The notes beneath the pieces were generated by a model that was not told where the DNA came from, did no database searches, and worked only from the letters and a program-made list of their open reading frames with translations. This document shows, piece by piece, positions 2,329 to 51,503 of a stretch of DNA of 64,000 nucleotides; position 1 is the stretch's first letter, and every line of letters starts with the position of its first letter. The position numbers were made by a program, and so were the translations under genes. This DNA comes from Tenggerimyces flavus (GTDB taxonomy: Bacteria > Actinomycetota > Actinomycetes > Propionibacteriales > Actinopolymorphaceae). The DNA lies in NCBI RefSeq assembly GCF_016907715.1, contig NZ_JAFBCM010000001.1, positions 7,541,420-7,605,419 of the forward strand. Direction: 5' to 3'.

Positions 2329-2382
2329 GGCCGCTCTACCTGGCGTCCGCCCCACGTAAAGCGGCCAATGATCATGTAAACA
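2329..2382. repeat. family D repeat, left part, split by the IS
   Basis: A hairpin with imperfect arms GGCCGCTCTACCTG (from 2329) and CACGTAAAGCGGCC (to 2366) is followed by CAATGATCATGTAAACA. The second half of the palindrome, TGTAAACATGATCATTGGCC, lies at 3941-3960 beyond the IS. Joined at the duplicated octamer they form a near-perfect palindrome. A second, uninterrupted member with the same hairpin-plus-palindrome layout in reverse order is at 46184-46269. Confidence 0.85.
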
Positions 2383-2514
2383 GGCTCTTCTTAGCCAAGG
2401 GTGGTGGTGGGGCTGGTAGCAGACCTGTCGGCGTGTCTCCTCGTGAGGGGGGTCCTGTGCCGGTCAGTCTCGGTTGGTTGCGAATCAGCCGGGGCTGGAA
2501 GGAGCACAGGACCC

Positions 2515-3936
2515 GTGGATGACGTTACTGGGTGGACGGCCGCGTTGGGCCTTGAGGGGTTCGAGGTGACTCGGGCGGTGGAACTGCTCGGGGAGTGGAA
2601 CCTGCTGATTCAGACCACGGCCGGGTCGCAGGCGTGTCGGGAGGCGTGTCGGGGGTGTGGGGCGGTCGCGTCGCCGCATGGTCGGCGGCCGGTGGTGGTG
2701 CGGGATCTGCCGATTGCGGGTAAGCCGGTGCTGCTGGTGTGGCATAAGCGGTTGTGGCGATGCCGCGAACCTCGTTGCCTGCAAGGAAGAACGACCACGG
2801 CGACGGCCACGGCCACGACGACGACGACGACCACGGCGACGGCGGTGACGTGGTCTGAGACGAGTGAGCTGATTCGGCCGCGGCGGTGTATGACCGAGCG
2901 GGCGGTGGCCGAGGCGGTGCGCCGGGTCGGTCAGGACCAGTCCGCGGTGGCGACGGTGGCCGCGGAGTTCGGTGTGTCGTGGGGCACGGTCAACACCGCC
3001 GTCGTGGCCGCCGCGAAGGCGCTGCGCCGGCCACCGGAGGCGCGTGCGGTGACCGCGGTCGGCGTCGATGAGCACGTGTTCGGGGCCCGTGGGCCGGTGC
3101 AGTGGATGCGGTTCTGCACCACCATCGTCGACGTCGGCCGCGGGAAGCTGCTCGATGTGCTGCCGGGCCGCACCGGCCGGATCGTGTCCGACTGGTTCGC
3201 CCACCGGGACCCGGCCTGGCGGGCCGGTATCCAGGCCGCGGTGTGTGATCCGCTGCGCTCCTACCGGTCCGGGCTACGGACCGGGCTGCCGCAGGCCAGC
3301 GTGGTGCTCGACGCCTTCCACCTGGTCAAACTCGGCACCGACACGACCGAACTGGTCCGCCGCCGGGTCCAGTTCGACCAACTCGGCCGCCGCGGCCGCA
3401 AGGGCGACCCCCTGCACGACACACTGCGGCTGCTGCGCAGCAAACCCGAGGCCTTCACCCCCGACGGACACCGCGCCACCCGACTGCGCACCGTCCTACT
3501 CGACCACGACCCCACCGGCCAGGTCGGCGCCACCTGGGAGATCGCCCACCGCCTCCGCCACCTCTACCAACGCGTCGACACCACGGCGAGGCAGCGTTTC
3601 CCCAACAAAACAAGGGTCACCGCACGCCTTGACCGGCTCATCGCCGACGCCCGCTACTACGCCCACCACGACGACATCCCCGAACTAGCGACCCTGGCGA
3701 ACACCCTCACCGAGTGGCGCGACCCCATCCTCGCCCGAGCCGACCACCCCTACGCCAGCAACGGCCCCACCGAAGGCACCAACACCATCATCAAGAAGAT
3801 CAAACGCATCGGCTTCGGCTTCCGCAGCTTCACCAACTACCGCGCCCGCATCCTCCTCGCCTGCGCCGACATAGACTGGCCACCCAAACCCGCAGCCACC
3901 CACATCAGACACCGCACACCACGCTTGGCTGCGTAG
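2515..3936 (+). CDS. ISL3-family DDE transposase
   Basis: The GTG at 2515 is the best start, with AAGGAG about 11 bases upstream. The frame is open further upstream but lies close to the left inverted repeat. The 473-residue protein has an N-terminal zinc ribbon (C..CRGCG, then WRCREPRC), a helix-turn-helix region (VAAEFGVSWGTVNTAV) and the catalytic domain. Asp is in GVDEHVFGARG and VVLDAFHLVKL, and Glu in GPTEGTNTIIKK, so the DDE triad is present. Oddly, residues 93-112, just after the last zinc-ribbon Cys, are almost only Thr and Ala from a triplet-rich DNA tract. Typical members go directly from the Cys pair to a TWSE-like motif, as seen here right after the tract. Confidence 0.93.
   Translation: MDDVTGWTAALGLEGFEVTRAVELLGEWNLLIQTTAGSQACREACRGCGAVASPHGRRPVVVRDLPIAGKPVLLVWHKRLWRCREPRCLQGRTTTATATATTTTTTTATAVTWSETSELIRPRRCMTERAVAEAVRRVGQDQSAVATVAAEFGVSWGTVNTAVVAAAKALRRPPEARAVTAVGVDEHVFGARGPVQWMRFCTTIVDVGRGKLLDVLPGRTGRIVSDWFAHRDPAWRAGIQAAVCDPLRSYRSGLRTGLPQASVVLDAFHLVKLGTDTTELVRRRVQFDQLGRRGRKGDPLHDTLRLLRSKPEAFTPDGHRATRLRTVLLDHDPTGQVGATWEIAHRLRHLYQRVDTTARQRFPNKTRVTARLDRLIADARYYAHHDDIPELATLANTLTEWRDPILARADHPYASNGPTEGTNTIIKKIKRIGFGFRSFTNYRARILLACADIDWPPKPAATHIRHRTPRLAA
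2791..2850 (+). repeat. ACG-rich trinucleotide tract inside the transposase gene
   Basis: Sixty bases are built almost only from ACG, ACC, GCG and GCC codons, including five consecutive ACG triplets. They add 20 Thr/Ala/Val residues in frame between the zinc ribbon and the helix-turn-helix. The tract keeps the reading frame, so the transposase may still work with a flexible linker. Slippage expansion is the likely origin. Confidence 0.85.
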
Positions 3937-3940
3937 AGCC

Positions 3941-3960
3941 TGTAAACATGATCATTGGCC
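3941..3960. repeat. family D repeat, right half, with target duplication
   Basis: This is the right half of the palindrome split by the ISL3 element. Positions 3941-3948 repeat the octamer at 2375-2382, and the remaining bases TGATCATTGGCC mirror GGCCAATGATCA at 2363-2374. Confidence 0.85.
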
Positions 3961-4009
3961 CAGGGTGGGCCGGACCGGTCGAACCCACCGCCGGGCGAAA
4001 GATCGAGGC

Positions 4010-5101
4010 TCAGGCCGCGGCGTTCGCTTCGCCGAGCCAGGGGTCGAAGCCGTCATCCCGACCCTGCCAGCCCTGCAGGCCCTTCGCGAGCTCGGCGTCG
4101 GTGAGCAGGACGTCGTCGAAGGCCGTGCGTACGCGTTCCGGGTCGTCGATGCCGGTGACGACGAGGCGGGTGCTCGGCTGGTTGCCCTGCCACGGGCCGA
4201 CGCTGCCGATGCTGAGCTGGCCGCCGGCGCCGTCCCAGCAGCAGGTGGTGCTGGGTCTGGTCGGCAACCAGAACCTGCCGCGGCTGCGGTGCGCGCCGCT
4301 GCCGAGGTCCTGGATCCGCTGGCGGAGGCGTTCGGGGTGGAGCGGCCGCCAGGACTGCAGGTCGAGCGTCCATACGCCGTGCGCGTCCTCCGCGCCGGTC
4401 GGCTCGATCCGGTGCGGGTCGGCGGCGGCCGAGATGCGCCGGTTGGCGGGCGCCGGCTCGAGCAACGTCGACCCGTCGACCTCGTGCACGTTCTCCAGGC
4501 GTACGCCGTTGTGGGCCAGGTGTCTGAGCAGCGTGGTCGCCCGCTCCGTGGCCGTACCCGCGAGCACGACGTGGTCGGCGAACTCGATCTGGTGCGCGAG
4601 CGTCTCCCCCACGCCGCGGCGGTCGTTGTCGGAGAGCGCGAGGCCACGTTCGACCAGGAGGTCGTCGCCGAACAGGTCGTCCTCGAGACTCCGCCGGTCG
4701 ACGGCGGCGACGATGCTCTGCAGCCGTACCTGGTCAGCGACGCGCTCGCGGTCGACGACCGCGGTGGCCAGCCCGGTCACGACGGGCAGCGGCTCGGCCG
4801 CGACCGGCAGGCTGAGCACGAGGTGCTGCCAGCGGTTGGTCCTGGCCAGGCGCGCGACGGTGGGGACGATGTCCTCGCGTACGGCACAGCCCATGCACGC
4901 GTGGTCGAGCGGGACCTCGACGTCCTCGACGACGCCGTCCCGGTCATAGACGACGCGGCGCAGCGTGCCCTCCGCCTCGACGAGCGTCAGATCGTGGCTG
5001 AGCACCGCGGTGCCGGGAACGTCGAACAGCAACGTCGACGCGGCAGTCTGCCTGAGGACCTCATCCATCGACGTGACAATCGTGACCCCACTCCCCGGCA
5101 T
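4010..5101 (-). CDS. COG0523 (CobW/G3E)-like zinc-associated protein lacking the P-loop
   Basis: The 363-residue product resembles the G3E/COG0523 metallochaperones. It has a CMGC motif at residues 69-72 followed by VREDIVP, equivalent to the family metal site CxCC and its usual xLREDL continuation. A CobW C-terminal-type domain lies at about residues 230-330 (LQSWRPLHPERL, then RGRFWLPTRP). The GxxGxGKT Walker A loop that normally starts the family is absent: the N-terminus reads MPGSGVTIVTSMDEVL. GTPase activity is therefore doubtful. A Zur-like palindrome lies 20-36 bp upstream of the ATG, so zinc repression is likely. It could be a zinc-binding relative rather than a true GTPase chaperone. 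Confidence 0.75.
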   Translation of the reverse strand: MPGSGVTIVTSMDEVLRQTAASTLLFDVPGTAVLSHDLTLVEAEGTLRRVVYDRDGVVEDVEVPLDHACMGCAVREDIVPTVARLARTNRWQHLVLSLPVAAEPLPVVTGLATAVVDRERVADQVRLQSIVAAVDRRSLEDDLFGDDLLVERGLALSDNDRRGVGETLAHQIEFADHVVLAGTATERATTLLRHLAHNGVRLENVHEVDGSTLLEPAPANRRISAAADPHRIEPTGAEDAHGVWTLDLQSWRPLHPERLRQRIQDLGSGAHRSRGRFWLPTRPSTTCCWDGAGGQLSIGSVGPWQGNQPSTRLVVTGIDDPERVRTAFDDVLLTDAELAKGLQGWQGRDDGFDPWLGEANAAA

Positions 5102-5120
5102 CGGCTACTCCTCATCGCTT

Positions 5121-5137
5121 TTGAAAACCGTTGTCAA
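5121..5137 (-). promoter_or_regulatory. Zur/Fur-like operator
   Basis: TTGAAAACCGTTGTCAA is an inverted repeat with one mismatched pair and a single-base centre. It resembles actinobacterial Zur boxes of the TGAAAAnnnTTTTCA kind. It sits just upstream of the COG0523-like gene, where bound repressor would cover the promoter. The match is by eye. Family context (COG0523 genes are common Zur targets) raises the likelihood. Confidence 0.6.
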
Positions 5138-5228
5138 TAAGCTAGCAGACTCCTTCGGCATTTCGAGCGTGCTTCCATGATGACCCGACAACGCGTTCAG
5201 GTCACCGACGGATTTGGCCAGATGTCTT

Positions 5229-6902
5229 CTAGAAGCGTGCGGGCTCGCGGTATTCGCCCCAGATGGCCTTGAGGGCACCGCAGATCTCGCCCAGTGTCGC
5301 TTCGGCGCGGGCGGCTTCGAGCATCAGGGGGACCATGTTCTCGTTCGTACTCGCCGCCTCCACCAGGCGGCGCAGCGACGCGTCGACCGCGGCCTCCGAA
5401 CGGGCCGCGCGGCGCTTGGTGAGCGCGTCGACCTGGTCGACCTCGACCTCGTGCGACACCCGCAGGATCTCCAGGTCGTCCGTCACCGACGACGGGGCCA
5501 CGTTCACGCCGACGATGCGCTTGTCGCCCTTCTCCAACGACTGCTGGTACTGGAACGCGGCCTCGGCGATCTCCGCCATGAACCAGCCGTCCTCGATCCC
5601 CCGCAGCAGCCCCGACGTGACCGTGCCGTCCGCGCTCATGCCCTTGATGCGCGCGAAGACCTCCTCCGCCGCGGCCTCGAGCTCGTCGGTCAGCGCCTCG
5701 ACGTACCAGGAGCCGCCCAACGGGTCCGCGACGTTCGTGACGCCGATCTCCTCCATCAGCACCTGTTGCGTCCGCAGCGCGATCTCAGCAGCCCGCTCCG
5801 ACGGCAGTGCCAGCGTCTCGTCCAGCGCGTTCGTGTGCAGCGAGTTCGTGCCGCCCAGCACGGCGGCCAGCGCCTCGACCGCCGTACGCACGACGTTGTT
5901 GTACGGCTGCTGCGCCGTCAGCGACACCCCGGCGGTCTGGGTGTGGAAGCGCAGCCACTGCGCGCGCTCCGTACGAGCCCCGTACACGTCCCGCATCCAA
6001 CGCGCCCAGATCCGCCGTGCCGCGCGGAACTTCGCGATCTCTTCGAAGAAGTCCAGGTGGCTGTCGAAGAAGAACGACAACCCCGGCGCGAACGTCTCCA
6101 CGTCGAGCCCGCGCGAGAGCCCGAGCTCGACGTACGCGAAGCCGTCCGCCAACGTGTAAGCCAGCTCCTGCGCGGCGGTCGAGCCGGCCTCGCGGATGTG
6201 GTAGCCGGACACGGACAGCGGCTTGTAGGCCGGGATCTCGGCGGCGCAGTACTCCATCAGGTCGCCGATCAGGCGCAGGTGCGGCTGCGGCGGGAACAGC
6301 CACTCCTTCTGCGCGATGTACTCCTTGAAGATGTCCGTCTGCAGCGTGCCGTCGAGCTTGGAGAGGTCGGCGCCCTGGCGTTCGGCCGCGACGAGGTACA
6401 TGACAAACACCGGGACGGCCGGGCCGGAGATCGTCATCGACGTCGTGACCTGCTCCAGCGGGATGCCGTCGAACAGCACGTCCATGTCGGCCGCGGAGTC
6501 GATCGCCACGCCGCAGTGCCCGACCTCGCCGAGCGACTTGGGGTCGTCGGAGTCGCGGCCCATCAGCGTCGGCATGTCGAACGCGACGCTGAGCCCTCCG
6601 CCGCCCGCCGCGAGGATCTTGCGGTAGCGGTCGTTGGTCTGCTGCGCGTTCCCGAAGCCCGCGAACTGGCGGATCGTCCACGTCTTGCCGCGGTAGCCGG
6701 TGGCGTAGAGACCACGCGTGAACGGGTACTCCCCCGGCCACCCGATCCGGTCGAACCGCGGGTCGTCCGCGCCGGGCGGCGGACCGTACACGGGCTGGAC
6801 CTCGACGGCCGACAGCGTCGTGAAGTCGGCGTCGCGCTTGCGCGCCGCGTCGTAGCGCGCCTGCCACCGCTCGCGGCCGGCCTCGATGTCCTCGGGCTTC
6901 AT
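5229..6902 (-). CDS. icmA: isobutyryl-CoA mutase-type large (catalytic) subunit
   Basis: This 557-residue protein is a coenzyme B12-dependent acyl-CoA mutase barrel subunit without the C-terminal B12-binding domain. Two substrate-pocket positions separate isobutyryl-CoA mutase (Phe80, Gln198 in IcmA) from methylmalonyl-CoA mutase (Tyr89, Arg207). Here residue 80 is Phe in TIRQFAGFGN and residue 198 is Gln in KEYIAQKEWLFPP, at exactly the IcmA numbering. It should interconvert isobutyryl-CoA and n-butyryl-CoA, linking valine catabolism to butyrate. The small B12-binding partner IcmB (about 140 residues) is not next to it and must lie elsewhere. The epimerase and MeaB genes 5-7 kb away belong to related metabolism. 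Confidence 0.85.
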   Translation of the reverse strand: MKPEDIEAGRERWQARYDAARKRDADFTTLSAVEVQPVYGPPPGADDPRFDRIGWPGEYPFTRGLYATGYRGKTWTIRQFAGFGNAQQTNDRYRKILAAGGGGLSVAFDMPTLMGRDSDDPKSLGEVGHCGVAIDSAADMDVLFDGIPLEQVTTSMTISGPAVPVFVMYLVAAERQGADLSKLDGTLQTDIFKEYIAQKEWLFPPQPHLRLIGDLMEYCAAEIPAYKPLSVSGYHIREAGSTAAQELAYTLADGFAYVELGLSRGLDVETFAPGLSFFFDSHLDFFEEIAKFRAARRIWARWMRDVYGARTERAQWLRFHTQTAGVSLTAQQPYNNVVRTAVEALAAVLGGTNSLHTNALDETLALPSERAAEIALRTQQVLMEEIGVTNVADPLGGSWYVEALTDELEAAAEEVFARIKGMSADGTVTSGLLRGIEDGWFMAEIAEAAFQYQQSLEKGDKRIVGVNVAPSSVTDDLEILRVSHEVEVDQVDALTKRRAARSEAAVDASLRRLVEAASTNENMVPLMLEAARAEATLGEICGALKAIWGEYREPARF

Positions 6903-6954: not shown

Positions 6955-7761
6955 ATGCGCGACGTGATCGACAGGTTCGTGGACGTTCCGAACGGCTACC
7001 TCTACACCCGCACCCACGGCGAGGGGCCGGACGTCGTGCTGCTCAACGCCGGGTACGCCGACCTGCGGATGTGGGACACGACCATCGCGTGGCTCGCCGG
7101 CATCGCACGGGTCACCACGTTCGACCACCGCGACACCGGGCTGTCCTCCCGCGCCATCGCGCCGTACAGCGAGCTCGACGACCTCGCCGCGGTCCTGGAC
7201 GCGGGCGGCGTGGAGACGGCGCTGGTGGTCGGCGTCTCCGACGGGGCACGGCGCGGGTTGGCGTTCACGCACAGGTACCCGGACCGCGTCGAACGGGTCG
7301 TCGCCATCGGCCCGGCGCTCGGCGGCTTCCCCGATCCGAGCCCAGAGGAGACCGAGGCGCGCCAGCCGATGCTCGAGCTGTTCGCGCCGCGAGCGGATCC
7401 GGGCGGAGGACGGCGTGTACGCCGAGGCGGAGGCGGACCTGGACACCTGGGCGCCGGCGCTGGACACGTACCACCGGCGGAAGATGCTCGGGCTGGCGTA
7501 CGCGAGCGAGTACTTCATCCGGCTCGAGGACTACTCGGCGCCGAGCTCGACCCGCCGGTCAAGACCCGGCTCGGCGAGCTCACCCGCCCGATCACCGTGC
7601 TCGCGGGCGGCCGCGACTTCCGGACCAGCGAGCTGTGGGGGCGGCGGATCGTACGCGAGGCGCCGGACGCGACGCTCACCGTGATCCCCGAGGCCGACCA
7701 CTACCCGATGCTGTCGACGCCGAAGGAGTTTGAACGCATCCTGCGCGACCTGCTCGCCTAA
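6955..7761 (+). CDS. alpha/beta hydrolase with an internal out-of-frame segment
   Basis: An open frame of 268 residues starts at ATG 6955. The N-terminal part is a normal alpha/beta hydrolase, with the nucleophile elbow GVSDG and the core HGEGPDVVLLNAG. The C-terminal part holds VLAGGRDFRTSE and the catalytic His in EADHYPML. Between about 7393 and 7541 the frame gives a low-complexity Gly/Arg/Ala run. The +1 frame there reads a normal helical segment (IRAEDGVYAEAEADLDTWAP, then ASEYFIRLEDYSAP). One extra base near 7393 and one missing base near 7541 explain this. The gene either carries compensating frameshifts or contains two sequencing errors. The stop overlaps the convergent MarR gene by 4 bp. 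Confidence 0.75.
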   Translation: MRDVIDRFVDVPNGYLYTRTHGEGPDVVLLNAGYADLRMWDTTIAWLAGIARVTTFDHRDTGLSSRAIAPYSELDDLAAVLDAGGVETALVVGVSDGARRGLAFTHRYPDRVERVVAIGPALGGFPDPSPEETEARQPMLELFAPRADPGGGRRVRRGGGGPGHLGAGAGHVPPAEDARAGVRERVLHPARGLLGAELDPPVKTRLGELTRPITVLAGGRDFRTSELWGRRIVREAPDATLTVIPEADHYPMLSTPKEFERILRDLLA

Positions 7762-14630: not shown

Positions 14631-14643
14631 CCACCGCTCCGCT

Positions 14644-14699
14644 TTGAATGAAGGGCACCTTCATTCAATAGGTTGAGATGAAGGTGCCCTTCATTCGAA
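14644..14699. repeat. family A double palindrome, copy 1
   Basis: The arm GAATGAAGGGCACCTTCATT is itself nearly palindromic and is followed, after AATAGGTT-type spacer, by its inverted complement. Five more copies are at 15098, 29293, 29706, 51314 and 51766. Here it marks the left border of a 398-bp non-coding core. Confidence 0.9.
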
Positions 14700-14952: not shown

Positions 14953-15097
14953 TGCTCTTCACGCGCCGCCCCTGCCCCCGGGAACGGGTGCCCGGGGAGG
15001 TTCCTTCTTGCTCGGGTTTGTTGCCGTGCTCGCGTCTCTTGTTGGCCCCCGGCTTCTTGTGGCTCAGATGAAGCCGGGCCTTCCGTCCCCCGTTTTT

Positions 15098-15153
15098 TTG
15101 AATGAAGGGCACCTTCATTCAATAGGTTCGAATGAAGGTGCCCTTCATTCAAA
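15098..15153. repeat. family A double palindrome, copy 2
   Basis: Same structure as the copy at 14644, with spacer AATAGGTTCG. It closes the first non-coding core on the right and ends 27 bp before the next start codon. Confidence 0.9.
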
Positions 15154-29687: not shown

Positions 29688-29705
29688 GACGGGGCGCTCG
29701 AGCGT

Positions 29706-29761
29706 TTGAATGAAGGGCACCTTCATTCAATAGGTTCGTATGAAGGTGCCCTTCATCCAAA
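29706..29761. repeat. family A double palindrome, copy 4
   Basis: Same unit as the other family A copies, with mixed arm variants (CATTCAA left, CATCCAA right). It is immediately followed by a terminator hairpin. Confidence 0.9.
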
Positions 29762-51278: not shown

Positions 51279-51313
51279 CCCCGCAGTCGCCACCCCCACC
51301 AGCTGCCGGCTCA

Positions 51314-51368
51314 TTGAATGAAGGGCACCTTCATTCGAACCTATTGAATGAAGGTGCCCTTCATTCAA
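51314..51368. repeat. family A double palindrome, copy 5
   Basis: Arms GAATGAAGGGCACCTTCATT and the complement are separated by CGAACCTATT, the reverse of the spacer in copies 1-4, so the array is inverted relative to 14.6 kb. Confidence 0.9.
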
Positions 51369-51503
51369 AAGGGACGGCCCGGCTTCATCGACACCACAAG
51401 AGACCGGGGGCCAACAAGAAGCCCAAGCACGGCAACAAACCCCAACAAGAAGGAACCTCCCCCGGGCACCCGTTCCCGGGGGCAGGGGCGGCGCGTGAAA
51501 ACA

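Follow-up and report, generated by a model that had tools for sequence, protein, structure and literature searches.

The question raised by this locus of Tenggerimyces flavus is what a COG0523-like protein may do when it has no Walker A motif and its gene stands behind a Zur-type palindrome. The first-pass annotation of this DNA had read the protein as a truncated form that could not be an ordinary G3E GTPase and that might serve as a zinc-sparing metal carrier under Zur control. Our analysis agrees that, by its motifs, this is no ordinary GTPase and that Zur control is likely, whereas neither the novelty of the form nor the metal carrier was supported by it.

Organization of the locus

Within the window, i.e., the whole stretch of 64,000 nucleotides analyzed here, the open reading frame at 4010..5101 on the minus strand is intact and encodes 363 amino acids. 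The following features were assigned:

4010..5101, minus strand: Mrf-like, Walker-less COG0523-like protein, 363 aa, ATG start
4109..4366, minus strand: CobW_C domain, residues 246-331 (Pfam PF07683)
4802..4816, minus strand: LSLPV codons at the Walker B place (alignment)
4886..4897, minus strand: codons of the CxxC motif, C69-M-G-C72, invariant across aligned relatives
5048..5071, minus strand: SMDEVLRQ codons at the Walker A place (alignment; predicted model)
5105..5107, minus strand: TAG stop, in frame, two codons 5' of the ATG
5108..5113, minus strand: ribosome-binding-site-like GAGGAG (direct reading of the letters)
5121..5137, no strand assigned: Zur-type box TTGAAAACCGTTGTCAA, 17-mer, with a 15-mer core at 5122-5136, 35 nt upstream of the ATG

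The in-frame TAG at 5105..5107 rules out an N-terminal extension of the 363-aa protein. The pattern [AG]xxxxGK[ST] is absent from all three gene-strand frames between 600 nt upstream of the gene and 360 nt inside it, and its sole match in the six frames of 3.9-7.0 kb, ATGYRGKT, lies within a mutase gene. A missed upstream frame supplying Walker A, which had been named as one observation that would overturn the first reading, was thus rejected on the in-frame stop and the lack of the motif in three frames. Since the frame is intact, the N-terminus complete and no P-loop is found upstream, the absent Walker A and the Zur-like palindrome are both real.

An ISL3-family insertion sequence occupies window positions 2363-3960 (transposase ORF at 2401-3936; 44-nt inverted ends, 86% complementary) and stops about 50 bp beyond the 3' end of the Mrf-like gene. 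Elsewhere in the window, an alpha/beta-hydrolase-like ORF at 6955-7761 appears by eye to change frame near 7380-7420 and 7550, with fitting residues in different frames, possibly reflecting a frameshift or a sequencing error. A composite palindrome of two facing copies of about GAATGAAGGGCACCTTCATTC, 9-13 nt apart, occurs at 14643-14699, 15097-15153, 29705-29761, and 51313-51369 and looks like a repeat family.

Nucleotide-binding motifs and predicted structure

At the place of the Walker A motif GxxGxGKT the protein reads SMDEVLRQ, at that of the Walker B motif ExxG it reads LSLPV, and in place of CxCC it has CMGC, without the middle cysteine; seven outgroup GTPases, in contrast, read GFLGAGKT, IESTG or VESTG, and CICC. 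Pfam detected CobW_C (PF07683) with 47.5 bits and a partial cobW match from profile position 55 onward only. Pfam, the alignment, and the frame scan together confirm that CxxC and CobW_C are kept and Walker A is missing, and the loss of Walker A and Walker B alike bears out that the protein is not an ordinary G3E GTPase.

An AlphaFold2 model, computed with the 47 aligned sequences as input, was confident (pLDDT 94.7, pTM 0.92) and displayed the YjiA-like fold with a CobW_C domain that characterizes COG0523/G3E proteins. At the P-loop place of this model, strand 1 stops at residue 11 and residue 14 already opens helix 1, so that a P-loop of usual length would have no room between them. The best solved structure was YjiA, with a Z of 14.1, 259 residues aligned, and an rmsd of 8.7 across both domains; three YjiA chains (Z 13.9-14.1, rmsd 8.2-8.7, 259-269 residues) were the only strong solved matches, the next chain following at Z 9.9, and Foldseek gave an E of 7.8e-14 for the model against YjiA. 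To judge from the high rmsd, the modeled protein may have its two domains placed differently from those of YjiA. A single-sequence search of solved structures returned no meaningful match; a profile search returned YjiA (E 8.4e-07) over the second half of the protein, so kinship to YjiA is supported by a sequence profile besides the fold.

Among curated families, the top match was Mrf (NF047431, NCBIfam) with 164.2 bits, below the cut-off of 375, followed by ZigA (NF038288) with 117.5 bits, below the cut-off of 600. Because the curated Mrf cut-off is not reached, we name the protein only "Mrf-like". All 47 aligned members, that of the window included, match the Mrf model at E <= 1e-5, and all 47 match ZigA too. 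The identity of the window protein to Mrf proteins that pass the cut-off is 26-27%.

Distribution of the Walker-less form

Whether the same form exists in relatives was checked, and all 115 rows, which stand for 107 distinct proteins including that of the window, lack Walker A, a count that applies to the clade and not to COG0523 as a whole, since the relatives were gathered with a Walker-less, Mrf-like profile. In the joint alignment, each of the 112 Mrf-like rows has C-x-x-C, and C69, C72, R75, and D160 as well as CobW_C residues are invariant over 47 sequences. In a sample of the phylum, the Mrf model was matched at E <= 1e-10 in 30 of 246 genomes, with 4 above the cut-off. Many of these matches are ordinary G3E proteins with GFLGAGKT, seven of which served as the outgroup; the four proteins passing the cut-off (L037-L040) are without a P-loop, as are the Mrf-like proteins of family f4. 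Order-wide, 81 of 147 genomes showed a match and 66 none. In a quick tree without bootstrap, whose long branches carry warnings and from which L066, L068, L069, and L070 (duplicates of named loci) and identical proteins had been dropped, seven other Actinopolymorphaceae rows form the sister group of the window protein (SH-aLRT 99).

These observations indicate that the absence of Walker A is a stable character of a clade spread across many actinomycetes; the word "GTPase" in the curated NCBIfam family name is doubtful. The Walker-less form is in fact the already known Rv0106/Mrf type, because the relatives lack Walker A and because an earlier report (Haas 2009; PMC2770081) states that Rv0106 misses both GTPase motifs, suggesting no GTPase activity. 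A new truncated form, as first supposed, is therefore not supported.

Zur-type box and likely zinc regulation

The palindrome TTGAAAACCGTTGTCAA is complementary at seven of eight arm positions. A Zur matrix built on 28 boxes upstream of related genes, with the Actinopolymorphaceae wholly left out, gave it 29.9 bits at 5119..5139, within the range of the training sites (23.0 to 38.4 bits), compared to 2.55 for the runner-up in the 64 kb; 200 first-order Markov sequences yielded no score as high (mean maximum 5.4). A chance palindrome at 5121..5137 was rejected on the matrix score and the Markov sequences, and the Zur-type box noticed at first pass is thereby confirmed. An earlier pattern count, which took the site itself as the pattern, is weaker evidence than the matrix. 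The overlap of the palindrome with a promoter, as stated at first pass, found no confirmation: a sigma-70-type scan of 3900..5300 gave no promoter-like site, a result of little weight in an actinomycete.

In the genome of the window, the box TGAGAATGATTCTCA (L278, 30.8 bits) lies ahead of znuA, with a Fur-family gene as Zur candidate three genes further, and the box TGAAAACGGTTCCCA (L081, 26.1 bits) lies ahead of a cysteine-free bL33. Given the strong box of the window gene, the boxed znuA near a Fur-family gene, and the boxed bL33, Zur control is likely as far as the sequence allows, and the gene is probably switched on by zinc starvation.

About 80 kb past the window end, a further locus of this genome (L284, 6004-10818) holds two neighboring YcaO genes alongside a 37-aa precursor-like peptide (..GTNALVHNPFAWDESK); the Zur-like box TGAAAACGGTTTCGA, about 22-36 nt before the ATG of the peptide, scores 22.5 bits, a little less than the lowest-scoring training site (23.0). 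A similar small peptide (..ALVENPFDDAV..) lies next to ORFs that by eye look transporter-like in L077 (family f4), near the Mrf-like and zinc-free ribosomal genes of that locus. The YcaO/peptide locus is a possible zinc-regulated RiPP; a search of the literature brought up no paper fitting by title.

Genomic neighborhood in relatives

Outside the Actinopolymorphaceae, at least one zinc-free (C-) ribosomal marker lies within the 10 kb around the gene in 86 of 98 distinct relatives; in 76 of them there are two or more. The markers counted with regular expressions were bL28, bL33, bL31B, and bL36; those for bL32 and bS18 were removed and the counts redone, since they cannot separate zinc-free from zinc types. 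NCBIfam confirmed bL28, bL33, uS14, bL31B, bL36, and bL32 in one cluster and bS18 in another.

Near the window gene there is no such marker. It stands alone, as do L112, L113, L116, L118, and L129 (f66) and a few Nocardioides and Kineosporia copies. Ten of the 12 relatives without a marker have a Zur box at most 400 bp upstream, so the layout of the window, a solo gene with its own box, is recurrent. With a narrow pattern run on the gene strand only, a Zur box was seen near by in 39 of the 98 relatives, and owing to this narrowness its absence in the others proves little.

The f66 copies come from the order of the window species. These solitary Mrf-like genes group in a separate long-branched clade, and 27 nt upstream of each lies a Zur palindrome that is perfect or nearly so. 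In G256, G266, G330, and G351, a second Mrf-like copy adjoins zinc-free ribosomal markers.

The gene in Actinopolymorphaceae

All eight Actinopolymorphaceae genomes carry the Mrf-like gene, Fur-family genes, and a long HPF, the window's genome having a single one with both S30AE domains. A single joined query for seven proteins served to look for zinc-free ribosomal proteins in these genomes, zinc-type bL36 not being among its targets. In the window's genome, bL33 was the only zinc-free ribosomal protein found, 4.35 Mb from the window gene in contig coordinates, and six other ribosomal matches were of the zinc type. In G003 the query gave a full zinc-free uS14, a bL36, and, next to a second Mrf-like copy with its own Zur box, bL28 and uS14 genes that are broken. 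In the remaining six genomes (G001, G002, G004-G007), the joined query revealed no zinc-free ribosomal protein and every ribosomal match read was of the zinc-binding type, though the query may miss such proteins, since neither form of bL31 came up in G004, nor any bL28 in G007.

The main copies in the seven other genomes show no Zur box within 400 bp upstream (best matrix score <= -9.75 bits), and a regular-expression search on both strands of 11.9-16 kb around the main Actinopolymorpha copies found none; Zur control of these copies from elsewhere was rejected on this search of their surroundings. In six of the seven (G002-G007), the main copy is convergent to its neighbor egtD, and the two can therefore form no operon; egtD, egtC, and egtB were named by NCBIfam in G004 only, and the window's species and G001 have no egt neighbor. 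A role in ergothioneine metabolism was not adopted, the link being one of neighborhood only, to a convergent gene that is absent in two of the genomes.

As all eight genomes have the gene and six show zinc-type proteins only, the Mrf-like gene seems to have been kept in this family while zinc-free ribosomal proteins were lost. Based on the six genomes with zinc-type proteins only and no box, we tentatively suggest, as a possibility rather than an expectation, that the Actinopolymorphaceae Mrf-like pseudo-GTPase outlived zinc-free ribosomes and might act on ordinary ribosomes or another client, outside Zur-driven remodeling. These copies thereby provide a natural experiment on whether zinc-free ribosomes are required by Mrf-like proteins.

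Possible function

We lean towards regarding the window protein as an Mrf-like, Zur-derepressed, zinc-gated, and nucleotide-free ribosome factor in zinc starvation, a reading that we hold to be probable with some reserve. A protein of the COG0523/YjiA fold that has lost its nucleotide-binding motifs and kept CxxC could hold zinc; at low zinc, Zur would leave the box at 5121..5137 and the gene would be transcribed, the zinc-free protein would help to place the long hibernation factor (Mpy/HPF) on ribosomes, and the zinc-bound form would be removed. Zur repression, zinc binding, and the ribosome step are inferred here by analogy with mycobacterial Mrf. In published work, MSMEG_6069 (Mrf) has a predicted Zur box and is strongly induced (PMC7174638), while Mrf contains CxxC, recruits Mpy, and in its zinc-bound state is turned over by Clp (review, PMC13418864). 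An Mrf-like factor is favored by Mrf being the best curated match, by the association of the protein family with zinc-free ribosomal proteins, and by the presence of znuA, Fur-family, and HPF genes in the window's genome. Against it stand the low Mrf score, the identity of 26-27%, the lack of ribosomal neighbors, the single zinc-free ribosomal protein in the genome, the six family genomes in which neither a zinc-free ribosomal protein nor a box was detected, and the incomplete spread of this type of gene through the order. The window gene is thus largely ordinary, as a member of an already described actinobacterial group including the mycobacterial ribosome-hibernation helper Mrf.

The YjiA fold (Z 14.1), the Zur box, the retained CxxC, and ZigA as second-best curated match, its model being matched by all aligned members, would also suit a zinc carrier similar to ZigA, YeiR, or YciC that needs no GTP or acts together with a partner and gives zinc to an essential client in starvation. 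We consider this unlikely: Walker A and Walker B are gone, helix 1 of the model begins at the loop place, the middle cysteine of CxCC is missing, and the usual neighbors of the family are ribosomal proteins. The carrier proposed by the first-pass annotation is unsupported by the curated scores as well, with Mrf at 164 bits above ZigA at 117 and neither score anywhere near its cut-off; zinc-free ribosomal proteins are encoded close to the genes of most relatives, and the published precedent is a ribosome-hibernation recruiter. A GTP-free metal carrier is hence less supported than the Mrf-like ribosome factor.

It appears improbable that the protein has, in Actinopolymorphaceae, a job without need of zinc-free ribosomes, the Zur box of the window's species being a leftover or a retained input. 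Six of the seven other genomes, with the gene but with neither a zinc-free protein found nor a box, would fit this, as would the adjoining egtD in six of seven; yet egtD is convergent and has no counterpart beside the gene in the window's species or G001, the box in the window's species is strong and a zinc-free bL33 there has one too, and the search can miss small proteins, as G004 and G007 illustrate. A decaying, functionless G3E GTPase, for which the loss of both nucleotide motifs and the insertion sequence ending close to the 3' end of the gene could be adduced, is scarcely credible in view of its conservation, as the ORF is intact, the gene occurs in all eight family genomes, C69, C72, R75, D160, and CobW_C residues are invariant over 47 sequences, and the model reaches a pLDDT of 94.7.

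Comparison with known systems

YjiA, ZigA, and YciC share with the window protein the two-domain fold, CobW_C, and a cysteine motif in the equivalent place. Proteins of this kind have Walker A, Walker B, and CxCC, YciC among them. The seven outgroup COG0523 GTPases show all three motifs, none of which the window protein has in full. The Mrf-like proteins of Nocardioides, Cellulomonas, Kineosporia, Aeromicrobium, and other actinomycetes are of the same type as the window protein, with 40-53% identity in the set of one search; most of their genes sit with C- ribosomal proteins, whereas the window gene is alone. Like Mrf itself (Rv0106/MSMEG_6069; NF047431), the window protein is a Walker-less COG0523-like protein with CxxC (C69-M-G-C72), CobW_C, and an upstream Zur box (29.9 bits); it differs in that its gene is not adjacent to ribosomal protein genes and in that it is without the 26-residue stretch that cut-off-passing Mrf proteins have in their C-terminal domain.
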